A stretch of DNA of 64,000 nt. Origin: Arthrobacter agilis (GTDB lineage Bacteria > Actinomycetota > Actinomycetes > Actinomycetales > Micrococcaceae). Under the pieces are notes generated by a model that was given only the letters and a program-made list of their open reading frames with translations, did not search any database and was not told the DNA's origin. The position numbers and the translations under genes are program-made. Numbering within the stretch: the stretch's first letter is position 1; each line of letters starts with the position of its first letter. The stretch spans positions 2,046,001 through 2,110,000 of the forward strand of contig NZ_JAUSXO010000001.1 in the NCBI RefSeq assembly GCF_030816075.1, given 5' to 3'. Below, piece by piece: positions 17,802-22,789 of this stretch.

Positions 17802-19442
17802 CTACATCCTCTCCGGCGCGGAGACCCCGAGGAGGTCCAGCCCGTTGGCGAGGACCTGCTGCGTGGCGTTGTTCAGCCACAGGCGCGAGCGGTGCACGTC
17901 CTCGACCGGCGCGTCGCCGAGCGGCGCGACGCGGCACGCGTCGTACCACCGGTGGTAGGTGCCGGCGATGACCTCGAGGTGGCGGGCCACGCGGTGAGGC
18001 TCGCGGAAGGTCGCCGACTGCGCGACGACGCCCGGGAACTGGCCGAGGGCGGCCAGCAGCTCGCCCTCCGTGGGGTGGCCCAGCGAGGCGGCGTCGAAGG
18101 TGCTCGTGTCCACGCCGGCGGAGACGGCGTTGCGGCCGACGGCGTGCGTCCTGGCGTGGGCGTACTGCACGTAGAACACGGGGTTCTCGTTGGTGTTCTT
18201 CCGCAGCAGCTCGGGATCGATGGACATGGCCGAGTCGGCCGGCGAGCGTCCCAGCGAGTAGCGCAGGGCGTCCTTGCCGAGCCAGTCGAGCAGGTCCCGC
18301 AGCTCGATGATGTTGCCGGCGCGCTTGGAGAGCCGGGCGCCGTTCACGGACACCATCTGGCCGATGAGGACCTGGATGTTCTGTTCCATGTCGTCGCCGG
18401 CGCAGGCCGCGATGGCCTTGAGGCGGCCGATATAGCCGTGGTGGTCCGCTCCGAGGAGGTAGATCTTCTCGGGGAAGCCGCGGTCCTTCTTGGAGAGGTA
18501 GTACGCGGCATCGGAGGCGAAGTACGTGGGCTCGCCGTTGGCCCTGATGAGGACGCGGTCCTTGTCGTCGCCGAAGTCGGTGGTGCGGAGCCAGACGGCG
18601 CCGTCCTCGTCGAAGACGTGGCCCTGCTCGCGCAGGCGGTCGACGGCCTGCTCCACGGCGCCGCCGTCGTGCAGCGCCGACTCGGAGAAGAACACGTCGA
18701 AGTGGACGCCGAAGTCCGCCAGCGTCTCCTTGATGTCGGCCATCTGCGCCTCGTAGGCGAGGGCGCGCACGATCGGGAGCGCGGTGTCGTCGTCGAGGTC
18801 CGCCACCTCGGGGCGGCCGGCGAGGACGGTGCGGCCGAGGTCCGCGATGTACTGGCCGGGGTAACCGCCCTCGGGCGTCGGCCGGCCCTTGATGGTCGCG
18901 AGGACGGAGGCCGCGAAGTTGTTCATCTGGGTGCCGGCGTCGTTGATGTAGTACTCCGTGGTCACCTGCGCACCGCTGGCCCGAAGGACGCGCGCGATGG
19001 AGTCGCCGAGAGCGGCCCAGCGCGTGTGGGCCAGGTGCAGCGGGCCCGTCGGGTTGGCCGACACGAACTCCATGTTGATGGTGTGGCCCGCGAGCGCCTC
19101 GTTGGTGCCGTAGGCGGGGCCGGCCTCGACGATCGTGCGGGCCAGCTCGCCCGCCGCGCCGGCGTCGAGCGTGATGTTCAGGAAGCCGGGACCGGCGATG
19201 TCCACTGCCTTGACGCCGTCGATGCCCGCCAGGCGGTCGCTGAGGAGCTGCGCGAAGTCGCGCGGGTTCATGCCCGCCTTCTTGCCGAGCTGCAGGGCGA
19301 TGTTCGTGGCCCAGTCCCCGTGGTCCCGGTTCTTCGGTCGCTCCACGCGCACCTCCGAGGGGAGGTCGATGTGCAGGTCGCCCGCCTCGACGGCGGCCTT
19401 CAGGCAGGCGGAAATTGCGGCAGAGAGTTCTTCGGGAGTCAC
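17802..19442 (-). CDS. argS: Arginyl-tRNA synthetase
   Basis: A 546-residue class I synthetase. The N-terminal Arg-tRNA additional domain spans about 1-100. The HIGH signature appears as HLAH at 136-139 within SANPTGPLHLAHTRW, and the KMSKS region as GARLSKRAGN near 358, a common degenerate form in ArgRS. The C-terminal DALR anticodon domain follows. It heads the argS-lysA-hom-thrC-thrB operon, a pairing known in corynebacteria to give coordinated arginine/lysine control. The start ATG lies at the end of a 233-base divergent region. Confidence 0.95.
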   Translation of the reverse strand: MTPEELSAAISACLKAAVEAGDLHIDLPSEVRVERPKNRDHGDWATNIALQLGKKAGMNPRDFAQLLSDRLAGIDGVKAVDIAGPGFLNITLDAGAAGELARTIVEAGPAYGTNEALAGHTINMEFVSANPTGPLHLAHTRWAALGDSIARVLRASGAQVTTEYYINDAGTQMNNFAASVLATIKGRPTPEGGYPGQYIADLGRTVLAGRPEVADLDDDTALPIVRALAYEAQMADIKETLADFGVHFDVFFSESALHDGGAVEQAVDRLREQGHVFDEDGAVWLRTTDFGDDKDRVLIRANGEPTYFASDAAYYLSKKDRGFPEKIYLLGADHHGYIGRLKAIAACAGDDMEQNIQVLIGQMVSVNGARLSKRAGNIIELRDLLDWLGKDALRYSLGRSPADSAMSIDPELLRKNTNENPVFYVQYAHARTHAVGRNAVSAGVDTSTFDAASLGHPTEGELLAALGQFPGVVAQSATFREPHRVARHLEVIAGTYHRWYDACRVAPLGDAPVEDVHRSRLWLNNATQQVLANGLDLLGVSAPERM

Positions 19443-19577
19443 CCGTCCAGCATACCGGCGCGGACCTCCGCGCCCTGCTTCGCGTGACGCGGTCGGCAGC
19501 GGCGGTGACGGCTGGGCCCGGTGGGCCCTCGTGCTCCTGCGGGAGTCCCTCGTCCTGGGGGAAACGAATCGTGCGGC

Positions 19578-19603
19578 GGAACGTTGGACGATGCAGGTAC
19601 GTT
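19578..19603 (+). promoter_or_regulatory. Candidate SigR-type promoter before the flavin module
   Basis: GGAAC at 19578-19582 is followed after exactly 18 bases by GTT at 19601-19603, close to the SigR/SigH consensus GGAAT-N18-GTT. Transcription would start near 19610, giving a leader of about 66 nt before the lipoprotein gene. A perfect match to the same consensus precedes sigR in this window. The fifth base differs, and a match this short can arise by chance. Confidence 0.45.
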
Positions 19604-19675
19604 GGTTCGAGCTTCAACCTTCCCTCGGTGTCCGGCCCCCGGCCCCCGTCCCGGCGATCTCCCCAGGAGCACCCC

Positions 19676-20227
19676 GTGAGCGCACGCCCCCACACCCTTC
19701 CCGCTGCAGCGACCCGTTCCGCCGGGTCCCCCCTGCCCCGCCGGGTCCTGACGGCCCTCGCCGCGGTCTCGATCCTCGGCGCCGCGGGCTGCGCGGGTGC
19801 GGAGGCCGAGCCGCCCGCGCCCGGGTCGCAGGCGGGGGCACCGTCGGAGGCACCGTCGGAGGCACCGTCGGAGGCACCGTCGGGCACGGGACCGGCGGCG
19901 GGCGACACGGGCGCTGACGCCTCGGGTGCGTCCTACAGGGACGGCACCTACACGGAGACCGGCTCGTACCAGTCCCCGGCCGGCCGGGAGGAGGTGGGCG
20001 TGACGATCACGCTGGAGGCCGACGTCGTCACCGCCGTGGAGGTGGAGCCCATGCCCGACAACCCGACCACCACCATCTACCAGGAGCGGTTCGCAGGCGG
20101 CATCTCGGACGCGATCGTGGGCCGGAAGCTCGACGATCTCGCCGTCGACAAGGTGGCCGGGTCCTCCCTCACGAGCGGCGGCTTCAACGAGGCGACCGGC
20201 AAGATCAAGAGCGAAGCCCGGCTCTAG
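19676..20227 (+). CDS. FMN-binding-domain lipoprotein (RnfG/NqrC-like), redox
   Basis: A 183-residue secreted lipoprotein. After an Arg-containing N-terminus and hydrophobic stretch, a lipobox-like GAAGC ends at Cys39. A Pro/Ala/Ser linker with four APSE units follows, then an FMN_bind domain from about 85. The family carries FMN covalently on a Thr in a SGAT-type motif, attached by ApbE. Here the aligned stretch AGSSLTS (161-167) has Ser164 at that position. The GTG start has AGGAG seven bases upstream. The gene is followed by apbE and a membrane flavoreductase, so it is probably the extracytoplasmic electron acceptor of that chain. Confidence 0.8.
   Translation: MSARPHTLPAAATRSAGSPLPRRVLTALAAVSILGAAGCAGAEAEPPAPGSQAGAPSEAPSEAPSEAPSGTGPAAGDTGADASGASYRDGTYTETGSYQSPAGREEVGVTITLEADVVTAVEVEPMPDNPTTTIYQERFAGGISDAIVGRKLDDLAVDKVAGSSLTSGGFNEATGKIKSEARL
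19837..19884. repeat. Tandem 12-bp repeat in the lipoprotein linker
   Basis: Four copies of GCACCGTCGGAG (last one diverging at its end) encode the APSE repeats between the lipidated Cys and the FMN-binding domain. The number of copies can change without shifting the frame and would set linker length. Confidence 0.8.
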
Positions 20228-20236
20228 GGCGGTACC

Positions 20237-21097
20237 GTGGCGGACTCCTTCAGCTTCGAGGCGATCGGCACCCGCTGGCGTGTCGACAGTCGCGCGCCGC
20301 TCCCGGCCGGGCAGCGCGCCGGGCTGCTGCAGCTCGCCGGCGAGTACGACGCCCTCTATTCGCGCTTCCGCGCCGACTCCGGCGTCACAGCCCTCGCCGC
20401 CGCCGGAGGCAGCCTTCCCCTGCCCGGCCACGGCGCCGCGCTGGGCCGGCTCCTGCGCACCCTCTACGACGTGACCGGCGGCGGGGTCTCGCCGCTCGTC
20501 GGCGAGCGCCTCGCGGCCCTGGGCTACGATGCCGCGTACTCGTTCGTCCCCACGGCGGCGCCCGCGCCCTCCCGCGCCTGGGACGGCCTGCTGGACTGGA
20601 CGGACGACGGCGTCACCCTGAGCGCGCCCGCCCTCCTCGACGTGGGCGCCGCGGGCAAGGGCCAGCTCGTCGACCTGATGCTGGAGTACCTCCTGGCCGC
20701 GGGCCACGAGGAGGTGATCGTCGACGCGAGCGGCGACATGCGGCGTGCCGGCGCCGGGACCATCACGGTCGGGCTCGAGCATCCCTATGATCCGTCGTCG
20801 GCCATCGGCACGGTGCCCCTCGGAGTCGGGGCGTTGTGCGCCTCGGCGTCCAACCGCCGGGTGTGGGGTGACGGGCTGCACCACGTCCTCGATGCCCGGA
20901 CGGGCCGCTGCGTCGACACCGTCGTCGCCACGTGGGTCCTCGCCGAGGACGCGATGACCGCCGACGGCCTGTGCACCGCCCTGTTCGTCGCGGACCCGGC
21001 CGACCTCGGCCGGGCCTTCGGCTTCGACTACGTCCTCGTGTACTCGGACGGGCGCGCCCGCTCGTCCGCCGCACTCCAAGGAGCCCTGTTCCCATGA
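20237..21097 (+). CDS. apbE: FAD:protein FMN transferase (ApbE family)
   Basis: A 286-residue flavin transferase that attaches FMN from FAD to Thr/Ser of flavin-carrier proteins. Family features seen are LLDVGAAGKGQLVDLM (the DxGxxxKG Mg/FAD site), VDASGDMR, HHVLDARTGRCVD and EDAMTADGLCTALFV with the metal-binding acidic and Thr positions. It is short, and begins directly with the mature fold (FSFEAIGTRW), without a signal peptide or lipobox. Typical ApbE proteins are exported. It sits between its likely substrate and the membrane reductase and shares an ATGA overlap with the latter. The start is GTG. Confidence 0.88.
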   Translation: MADSFSFEAIGTRWRVDSRAPLPAGQRAGLLQLAGEYDALYSRFRADSGVTALAAAGGSLPLPGHGAALGRLLRTLYDVTGGGVSPLVGERLAALGYDAAYSFVPTAAPAPSRAWDGLLDWTDDGVTLSAPALLDVGAAGKGQLVDLMLEYLLAAGHEEVIVDASGDMRRAGAGTITVGLEHPYDPSSAIGTVPLGVGALCASASNRRVWGDGLHHVLDARTGRCVDTVVATWVLAEDAMTADGLCTALFVADPADLGRAFGFDYVLVYSDGRARSSAALQGALFP

Positions 21098-22605
21098 CCG
21101 CAGCACTCGACGGCCTGCTGGGCCGCGTGACCATGTACCGGCTGACGCTGATCGTCCTCCTGGTCCTGACCCTCGAGGCGTTCGCCCTGTCACTCGCGGG
21201 CCTCCTCGCCTACCCGCCCGCCGAGCTCGGCGGCTCGCTCCTCGCCGCGGTCGGGGGGACGATCATCGGCACCCGCGTGATGGCGCTCATCCTGCGGCTC
21301 CGCCCGCACAGTGAGTCCTCCCTCATCACCGGCCTGATCGTGTTCCTCATCATGTTCCCGTCCGCCACCGCCGCCGGGCTCGGCGGCGTCCTCGTCGCCG
21401 GTGCCGCGGCCGGCGCGTCGAAGTTCCTCCTGGCCTTCCGGGGACGGCACATCTTCAATCCCGCCGCGACGGGCGCCGTCGTCGCCACGCTGCTCGGCGT
21501 CGGTGCAGCCGCGTGGTGGGTCGCGAACGCCTACATGCTGCCCGTCGTCGCGGTGGGGGCCGCCCTGCTCCTGTACCGCACCCGGAAGCTGGCCATGGGA
21601 GCCGTGTTCCTCGTCGTGGCGCTCGGGATCCTGCTGGCGGGCCTGGTGCAGGGCGGCATGGCACCCGGCGCCGGCCTGCAGCTCGTCCTGACGTCCTACC
21701 CCGTGCTGTTCCTGCTCGGGTTCATGCTGACCGAACCGCTCACCCTCCCCCCGCTGCGCTGGCAGCAGTGGCTCTTCGCGGCGATCGTCGCCGCCGTGTT
21801 CGCGCTCCAGCTGTCGGCCGGGCCGGTGTTCCTCGGCCCGGAGTTCGCCCTGGTGATCGGCAACGCCGTGGCGTTCCTGATGGGACAGCGGCGGGGCGTG
21901 CGGCTGTCCTTCACGGGGTCGCGGCGGCTCACCCCGACCAGCACCGAACTCGTGTTCGCCCCGGCGAAGCCCGTACGCTTCCGGGCCGGCCAGTACATGG
22001 AGCTGAGCATGCCGCACCGGGGGGCGGACAGCCGCGGCAGCCGGCGGGTCTTCAGCATCACCTCCGCACCCCAGCAGGGCGACGCCGTCACCTTCGGGCT
22101 GCGGACCACCGGGTCCGGGAGCTCGTTCAAGAAGGCCCTGCTCGACCTGCCGAAGGACGCGCAGGTCACCGGGACGCTCGTGGGTGGCGACTTCTTCCTG
22201 CCGCGGGACCCGTCCGTCCCGCTGCTGCTCGCCGCAGGGGGCATCGGCGTGACGCCGTTCCTCAGCCAGCTCAGGGACCTCGCCGCCCGCGGGGAGACCC
22301 GCGACGTCGTCCTCGTGTACGTGGTGCGGGACGAGCAGGAGATCGCCTTCCGCGACGAACTGGCCGACCTCGGCACCCGCGTGGTGCTCTTCCTGCCCAC
22401 CGCGGACGGTGTCCCCCCGCTGCCCGGCACGTGGACCTACGCGGGGGCGGATGCGTCGGCCGAGGACCTCCTGGCCGCCGTCCCGGATCTCGGCAGGCGC
22501 AGGGTGCTCGTCTCGGGCTCACCCCGGTTCATCGGCGACTTCCGCGCCGCGGTGCGCTCGGCGGGCGTGTCCCGGGTGACGACGGACGCCTTCCTGGGCT
22601 ACTGA
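21094..22605 (+). CDS. RnfD/NqrB-like membrane domain fused to ferredoxin-NADP reductase domain
   Basis: A 503-residue protein in two parts. Residues 1-270 carry about nine membrane helices with HIFNPAATG near 119-127, reminiscent of the FNPA stretch of RnfD/NqrB. Residues 270-503 form a flavoreductase: FAD-binding FRAGQYMEL and RRVFSITSAP, NAD(P)-binding LLLAAGGIGVTPFLSQL near 378-394, and SGSPRFIGDF near the end. The likely role is to take electrons from cytosolic NAD(P)H through the membrane to the flavin lipoprotein upstream. The SGAT flavinylation motif of true RnfD/NqrB is not seen. ATG overlaps the apbE stop. Confidence 0.8.
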   Translation: MTAALDGLLGRVTMYRLTLIVLLVLTLEAFALSLAGLLAYPPAELGGSLLAAVGGTIIGTRVMALILRLRPHSESSLITGLIVFLIMFPSATAAGLGGVLVAGAAAGASKFLLAFRGRHIFNPAATGAVVATLLGVGAAAWWVANAYMLPVVAVGAALLLYRTRKLAMGAVFLVVALGILLAGLVQGGMAPGAGLQLVLTSYPVLFLLGFMLTEPLTLPPLRWQQWLFAAIVAAVFALQLSAGPVFLGPEFALVIGNAVAFLMGQRRGVRLSFTGSRRLTPTSTELVFAPAKPVRFRAGQYMELSMPHRGADSRGSRRVFSITSAPQQGDAVTFGLRTTGSGSSFKKALLDLPKDAQVTGTLVGGDFFLPRDPSVPLLLAAGGIGVTPFLSQLRDLAARGETRDVVLVYVVRDEQEIAFRDELADLGTRVVLFLPTADGVPPLPGTWTYAGADASAEDLLAAVPDLGRRRVLVSGSPRFIGDFRAAVRSAGVSRVTTDAFLGY

Positions 22606-22695
22606 CCCCCGCGCGGGCGGCCCCGGCGTTTTCCCGAGCCGGGCTCACCTGCTAAGCTCTACGAGTCCCTAACGGGCACGGGAACCACCGTGTCT

Positions 22696-22768
22696 GCCTT
22701 CGTAGCTCAGGGGATAGAGCGTCTGCCTCCGGAGCAGAAGGTCGTAGGTTCGAATCCTATCGAGGGCA
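22696..22768 (+). tRNA. tRNA-Arg (anticodon CCG)
   Basis: A 73-nt cloverleaf. The acceptor stem GCCTTCG pairs with CGAGGGC (one G-U), D stem GCTC/GAGC, anticodon stem TCTGC/GCAGA with loop CTCCGGA (anticodon CCG at 22729-22731), T stem GTAGG/CCTAT with loop TTCGAAT, and discriminator A at 22768. CCA is not encoded. It decodes CGG. A plausible -10 (TAAGCT) lies about 40 bases upstream. Confidence 0.97.
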
Positions 22769-22789
22769 CCCCGACTCACGCAGAGTCCA

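Follow-up and report, generated by a model that had tools for sequence, protein, structure and literature searches.

A predicted transmembrane flavin electron-transfer operon of Arthrobacter agilis whose flavin transferase lacks a recognizable export signal

How could a flavin become attached to a protein outside the cell if the transferase encoded beside that protein appears to remain inside? This question is raised by an operon of the soil bacterium Arthrobacter agilis (Actinomycetota; Actinomycetes; Micrococcaceae), located in a stretch of 64,000 nucleotides (hereafter the window; assembly GCF_030816075.1, contig NZ_JAUSXO010000001.1, positions 2,046,001 to 2,110,000) from a complete, single-contig genome of 3.86 Mb. 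Its three genes encode a lipoprotein with a predicted flavin mononucleotide (FMN)-binding FMN_bind fold, the flavin adenine dinucleotide (FAD):protein FMN transferase ApbE, and a fusion of an RnfD/NqrB-like membrane domain with an FAD/NAD(P)H reductase (Table 1). An earlier note, made from the letters of the window alone, had described these tightly packed genes as a minimal chain from cytosolic NAD(P)H to an extracytoplasmic flavin. All three genes were confirmed, with the start of the fusion gene overlapping the ApbE stop by 4 bases, and the central idea of the note was right, the arrangement having already been published (PMC8238504, PMC11334425).

The operon belongs to the NQR/RNF-like flavinylation systems known from the literature, and its kind is not new. 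In the passages cited here, 127 clusters with such a fusion were described in 127 genomes, mainly of Actinobacteria and the Candidate Phyla Radiation, together with the proposal that electrons move in one direction only, from NAD(P)H to an extracytosolic FMN_bind protein (Meheust 2021 eLife, PMC8238504). The same arrangement and electron path reappear in a later study, in which the membrane subunit lacks the flavinylated threonine and was modelled, with Ktedonobacter as the example, in close contact with the FMN_bind subunit (Huang 2024 mSystems, PMC11334425). These passages describe the three-gene module without an experimental test. The features by which the two studies recognize the systems are present in the window: for the former, an ApbE and/or FMN_bind protein with a signal or lipidation site (here a PF02424 match and a lipobox), and for the latter, a membrane subunit without the conserved flavinylated threonine (here asparagine). 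The window operon thus shares with the published systems an FMN_bind protein, an ApbE, and a fused NqrB/RnfD-like and PF00175 protein whose membrane domain is devoid of the flavinylation motif, but differs in its lipoprotein substrate, an invariant S-S motif and an ApbE without export signal. What we add is this last point, a flavin transferase seemingly on the wrong side of the membrane relative to its exported substrate, by which the general assumption that exported proteins are flavinylated outside, with exported FAD, becomes an answerable question. To our knowledge, no smaller chain from NAD(P)H to a surface flavin has been described.

For the assignment of the fusion protein, 43 sequences from 86 loci of the family were aligned. 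In its reductase part, PF00175 (NAD_binding_1) was matched by the window protein (E 1e-6, 29.8 bits vs. a cut-off of 22) and by 24 of the 43 orthologs at E<=0.001 (38 at E<=0.1). The AlphaFold model (predicted local distance difference test (pLDDT) score 89.8, predicted template modelling score 0.84) resembles the reductase domains of flavohemoglobin and NqrF in this region (Z ~24-26; 4eh1_A, Z 25.6; NqrF FAD domains, Z ~24), in support of the predicted union of membrane and NAD(P)H flavoreductase parts in one polypeptide; the best 50 Foldseek matches of the full-length fusion are all reductases or proteins with a reductase part, and no RnfD chain is among them. For the membrane domain, PF03116 was found in 8/43 orthologs at E<=0.001 and 12/43 at E<=0.1, and hhalign aligned the fusion alignment to 16 PF03116 proteins of the phylum with a probability of 94.4% (E 8.8e-8), pairing the motifs around SSLITG, RHIFNPAA and FMLTEPLT. 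Furthermore, the model matches RnfD chains from cryo-EM (8rbq_D, Z 22.4; 8ahx_D, Z 22.3; 9eri_D, Z 21.9). Pfam searches with the window proteins alone are misleading; the hhalign and fold results are independent of whether loose or strict Pfam limits are chosen for the orthologs. Taken together, an RnfD/NqrB-like membrane part joined to an FNR-type FAD/NAD(P)H reductase is supported, as the earlier note had supposed.

The covalent-FMN motif D-x-x-T-x-A-T of RnfD/NqrB is gone from this membrane domain. The column of Asn145, behind an invariant WW, contains T in 23, N in 11, A in 5 and S in 4 of the 43 sequences. A ferredoxin domain was not detected in the fusion by Pfam or fold matches, in agreement with the predicted lack of an iron-sulfur part, and the reductase domain presumably faces the cytosol. 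The source genome contains no match to PF02508 (RnfA/E, NqrD/E) at E<=0.001, and hence no ion-pumping partner was found, nor any PF03116 match at E<=1e-10. The system resembles Rnf in its RnfD-like membrane fold and RnfG-like FMN_bind fold, but lacks RnfA/E, has its reductase fused to the RnfD-like part and has lost the covalent-FMN motif. Similarly, it resembles Na+-NQR in an NqrF-like FAD/NADH domain and an NqrC-like FMN_bind domain, but has no detected NqrF-type ferredoxin domain, no NqrD/E and no sign of a pump. The cofactor names and roles used here for Rnf and Nqr outside the cited passages are general knowledge.

The lipoprotein was examined in an alignment of 42 sequences from 84 family loci, in which the lipobox cysteine is invariant. 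FMN_bind was matched by 16/42 orthologs at E<=0.001 and 30/42 at E<=0.01. The model has a mean pLDDT of 76.7, with blocks above 80 from residue 61 onward, and its residues 65-158 resemble SaFMN3 domain 2 (Z 10.4), holo-NqrC (Z 8.9) and RnfG (Z 8.2), while Foldseek returned no match at E<=0.001. On the basis of the ortholog matches and this model, we assign a predicted FMN_bind fold to the lipoprotein.

Its putative acceptor motif deviates from the ApbE target motif D-x-x-[ST]-G-A-[ST] (PMC12052999). All 100 operon loci (84 from the family, 16 from other families of the class) have the form x-x-[VI]-x-[GSA]-S-S, and both the serine at position 6 and the predicted acceptor serine are present in 84/84 family loci, 77/77 loci of set B and 16/16 loci of other families, none of which has a canonical [ST]GA[ST] within the last 60 lipoprotein residues. 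(Set B comprises 80 named records whose genomes overlap those of the family loci, set A, and is kept out of the totals.) The alanine of the consensus is missing from every sequence, the [ST] residue from 69/84 and the aspartate from 48/84 family loci, with position 1 occupied by aspartate in 36/84 and by serine in 34/84. Distant relatives of the operon retain SGAT or TGAT; the S-S is therefore a property of this lipoprotein clade, unlike the signal-less ApbE, which is present in every readable branch. The passages of PMC8238504 and PMC11334425 considered here do not describe an S-S acceptor motif. Serine can be used as an acceptor by ApbEs, which work on the seven-residue motif and labelled tags best when these were placed at a terminus (PMC12052999); in the window lipoprotein, 19 residues follow Ser164.

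The ApbE itself is clearly identified (PF02424, E 5e-30), and neither a signal peptide nor a lipobox was found in it. Since its reading frame opens just 3 codons before the GTG start, a hidden upstream signal is impossible. Export signals were scored with a liberal, home-made test (a start codon at most 75 codons upstream of the domain and a 12-residue uncharged stretch with a mean hydropathy of at least 1.7), and the same hydropathy rule with a wider search range was applied to the lipoproteins. By this test, no operon ApbE has a signal (0/84 in the family, 0/79 in the overlapping set B, 0/16 in other families), while the partner lipoproteins mostly do (80/84, 74/77 and 16/16, respectively). 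As a control, a signal was found in 24 of 30 ApbEs from the best-matching loci of the phylum. These 30, together with 40 lower-scoring ApbEs picked by hand, are not a random sample, and for them, as for the genus ApbEs, the domain start was shifted upstream where the profile match began late. In two distant relatives, judged by inspection rather than script (L353, L355), the readable ApbE begins right at its domain and the substrate has a hydrophobic N-terminal stretch; a third ApbE (L354), cut off by N letters, was excluded from the count.

Of the two ApbE genes in the source genome (three match rows), neither has a signal. Among 22 genomes of the genus, 20 gave ApbE matches, and the home-made test detected no signal in any of the 24 distinct genes (27 rows); 16 of the genomes have no ApbE match other than one that its score assigns to the operon type. 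Thus, neither the source genome nor the 21 others of the genus yielded an exported FMN transferase, though the substrate is an exported lipoprotein. Published work places the action of ApbE on exported substrates in the extracytosolic space, requiring FAD outside (PMC9973259, PMC12052999), and in the Listeria scheme FAD has to be exported for flavinylation (PMC9973259). SaFMN3 of Streptomyces azureus was described as being anchored outside, "in line with" extracellular transferases (PMC10339131). Cytosolic ApbEs are known as well, with a soluble fumarate reductase as the Klebsiella substrate (PMC12052999). A literature search, figures and supplements aside, retrieved nothing on Actinobacteria in which an ApbE without a signal serves an exported substrate, and the passages of PMC8238504 and PMC11334425 considered here do not describe a signal-less ApbE in NQR/RNF-like systems. 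Attachment of the flavin outside by an exported ApbE is the usual assumption, and the sequences considered here lend it no support.

The earlier note had proposed searching for the same gene order across genomes. The fusion was found in 86/295 genomes and 9/32 genera of the family at E<=1e-20, and its nearest named relatives are proteins of A. ruber, A. bussei, Arthrobacter sp. B0490 and other Arthrobacter (87-89% identity). At E<=1e-30, it occurs in 19/296 genomes of the class, three of which belong to the family; all 19 rows cover nearly the whole profile, one with an internal stop. In the phylum sample, 68/396 genomes matched at E<=1e-20, mostly by the reductase part only, and 8 rows, two of them from a distant family, cover nearly the whole profile. 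The order lipoprotein-ApbE-fusion is kept in 84/86 family loci and 16/16 loci from other families of the class, within the set spacing limits in 84/84 and, for each gap, in 15/16. In the two remaining family loci, L045 (at a contig end) and L082, neither partner gene was found, and both loci were left out; on short contigs of set B, L133 lacks both partners and L146 and L173 the lipoprotein. L303, whose fusion frame has an internal stop, was still counted for gene order, ApbE and lipoprotein. The Mesorhizobium plasmid copy, a distant one with matches to PF04205, PF02424, PF00175 and PF03116, shares both the gene order and the overlap of 4 bases. Because of this recurrence, the three-gene order is more than chance, and we read the operon as stable and mostly vertically inherited.

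In the mechanism that we propose, NAD(P)H would reduce the FAD of the C-terminal reductase domain, the RnfD-like domain would carry the electrons across the membrane via a non-covalently bound flavin, and the lipid-anchored FMN_bind protein on the outer face would accept them with an FMN attached to Ser164; from there they would go to an acceptor outside that is either diffusible or encoded elsewhere. We consider this path probable. In addition, the operon's own ApbE would attach the FMN inside the cell, to a precursor that has not yet folded, before export, so that flavinylation would need no FAD export, contrary to the extracytosolic scheme of the Listeria type. This part is put forward tentatively, at slightly less than even chances, because a search of the source genome and 21 others of the genus revealed no ApbE that bears an export signal, and because the target is a short motif near the C-terminus, of a type that ApbE accepts as a tag. 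If true, a bulky covalent cofactor would have to pass the Sec channel, which would be unusual.

Several observations weigh against this reading. PF03116 has no Pfam match in the window fusion even at E up to 10, FMN_bind reaches only 16 bits in the window lipoprotein (Pfam cut-off 22), and the majority of aligned orthologs lack either family at E<=0.001. The RnfD fold alignments span 247-259 residues at root-mean-square deviations of 3.9-4.5 A and extend into the reductase part. Besides its FMN_bind matches, the lipoprotein model shows similarity to an unrelated lipoylation protein (Z 8.8) and to scaffolds of the IscU type (Z up to 8.5). Flavinylation could be lowered by the serines that stand in place of Ala and Thr in the motif, by analogy with a Thr to Ser swap, which lowers it 10-55%, and an Ala to Val exchange, which leaves ~50% (PMC12052999). 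Moreover, the signal test was home-made rather than SignalP and would miss non-classical export, and only 1 of the 40 lower-scoring phylum ApbEs has a signal, so that a missing signal is common among these and not special to the operon. A folded route through twin-arginine translocation (Tat) fails for the family as a general answer, since a twin-arginine-like motif was found in just 8/84 family lipoproteins (10/77 in set B and 1/16 in other families); for the window's own lipoprotein, which is among the eight and has an RR pair upstream of its hydrophobic stretch, Tat export is possible. Finally, the case is built from the genes and their order, homology, folds, the lost membrane motif, the altered lipoprotein motif and the missing ApbE signal, and from these the cofactors, the direction of electron flow, the covalent link, the place of attachment and the acceptor are inferred.

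Of the competing explanations, export of the ApbE, either non-classically or together with its substrate, would leave the electron path unchanged and move flavinylation outside, as in the published extracytosolic action with its demand for FAD there (PMC9973259, PMC12052999). However, the tightly bounded reading frame in the window and the missing signal in operon and genus ApbEs alike argue against it, and we regard it as unlikely. Even less likely, in our judgement, is a lipoprotein that is not covalently flavinylated at all, its motif having decayed and its FMN being non-covalent or absent, with the ApbE serving another, for example cytosolic, substrate. While the broken consensus and the cytosolic ApbE/substrate pair of Klebsiella (PMC12052999) are in line with this view, the S-S is invariant in 100 loci of several families, which points to use rather than decay; furthermore, the three genes remain adjacent, distant relatives carry SGAT or TGAT, and ApbEs are able to use serine (PMC12052999).

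As to the role of the proposed path, ferric iron reduction for uptake would be compatible with it and is conceivable, if doubtful: six published clusters include the iron transporter VIT1 (PMC8238504), and a VIT family gene lies near the Mesorhizobium copy, but no downstream gene cluster is shared by more than 34 of the 102 loci, and none of the recurrent ones inspected looks like iron uptake (by eye, not by family search). It is highly improbable that the membrane domain is an unrelated transporter fused by chance to a reductase. A match to an unrelated transporter, named beforehand as the result that would speak against the assignment, did not occur: the sole transporter match in the fusion, PF02690 at E 0.79, is below the cut-off and stands against the PF03116 matches of orthologs, the hhalign alignment and the RnfD-type folds.

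The acceptor was predicted by the earlier note not to be encoded nearby, and indeed no recurrent acceptor gene was found within ~5 kb in the 102 loci. Neighbouring genes were clustered from frames of at least 80 aa with a similarity of at least 90 bits; two clusters of antisense open frames (75 and 41 loci) were set aside, as both are located within the operon, opposite to its genes. Beside the Mesorhizobium copy of the operon, and beside one distant phylum copy (the latter by eye), a sensor kinase is encoded together with a response regulator, and PepSY genes accompany the VIT family gene near the former.

The source genome contains a second flavinylation cluster of the MsrQ-like type (C1:1380000-1392000), which is unlinked to the window operon. 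It encodes two FMN_bind proteins, hydrophobic at the N-terminus and bearing canonical SGAT motifs, a signal-less ApbE, and a membrane reductase with PF01794 and FAD/NAD domains. Accordingly, it shares with the window operon the combination of FMN_bind partner, signal-less ApbE and membrane reductase, but differs in its canonical motif, its membrane protein and its location. In a motif scan of 41 loci, an SGAT-type partner was found near a signal-less ApbE in nine (L118, L230-L232, L234, L236, L237, L239 and L261) and in none of the other 32; several of these partners bear two or three motifs. In L231, L234 and L239, frames with three SGAT motifs and an RR before a single N-terminal hydrophobic stretch are located beside the signal-less ApbE.

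Table 1. Features of the operon and its flanks, in window coordinates.
Feature	Position	Strand	Basis
argS, divergent neighbour	17802..19442	-	TIGR00456, E 3e-111
AGGAG 5' of the lipoprotein GTG	19665-19669	+	sequence
FMN_bind-fold lipoprotein, 183 aa, RnfG/NqrC-like flavinylation substrate (predicted)	19676..20227	+	GTG start 19676, stop 20227
Lipobox cysteine Cys39 in ILGAAGC, predicted lipid attachment	19790..19792	+	sequence
Flavinylation motif D-K-V-A-G-S-S (predicted)	20147..20167	+	sequence and ortholog conservation
Predicted acceptor Ser164	20165-20167	+	motif position
ApbE, FAD:protein FMN transferase, 286 aa, without signal peptide	20237..21097	+	PF02424 match
Fused transmembrane electron-transfer protein, 503 aa	21094..22605	+	sequence and model
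RnfD/NqrB-like membrane domain, residues 1-265, ~10 helices in model	21094..21888	+	fold, hhalign, ortholog PF03116
Asn145, aligned beside the flavinylated Thr of RnfD	21526-21528	+	hhalign
FNR-type FAD/NAD(P)H reductase domain, residues 266-503	21889..22605	+	Pfam and fold matches
tRNA-Arg (CCG), downstream of operon	22695..22771	+	adjoining tRNA gene

No consensus promoter was found for the window operon, and a hairpin resembling a terminator follows the tRNA-Arg (CCG) gene on its 3' side. Between lipobox and FMN_bind domain, the lipoprotein has a linker with a short tandem repeat of A-P-S-E units (window 19838-19882), and the length of this linker varies among the orthologs.

The arginine-tRNA neighbourhood of the operon, with argS on one side and tRNA-Arg (CCG) on the other (window 17802-22771), is kept in most of the family loci tested for no obvious reason. 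A frame matching the window argS is present in 83/102 loci, and a neighbour cluster with an ArgS-like representative in 90/102, always on the opposite strand. Out of 182 loci in sets A, B and C, 60 were scanned for the tRNA gene: of the 35 that belong to the family, 34 have it close to the operon, and of the 25 others none does. Arthrobacter-type operons were also seen in records named Vibrio cholerae 35D (WNZI01000018.1; 85% fusion identity) and Pseudomonas sp. DR48 plasmid (NZ_CP081947.1; 48%), which are likely mislabelled or contaminant sequences.

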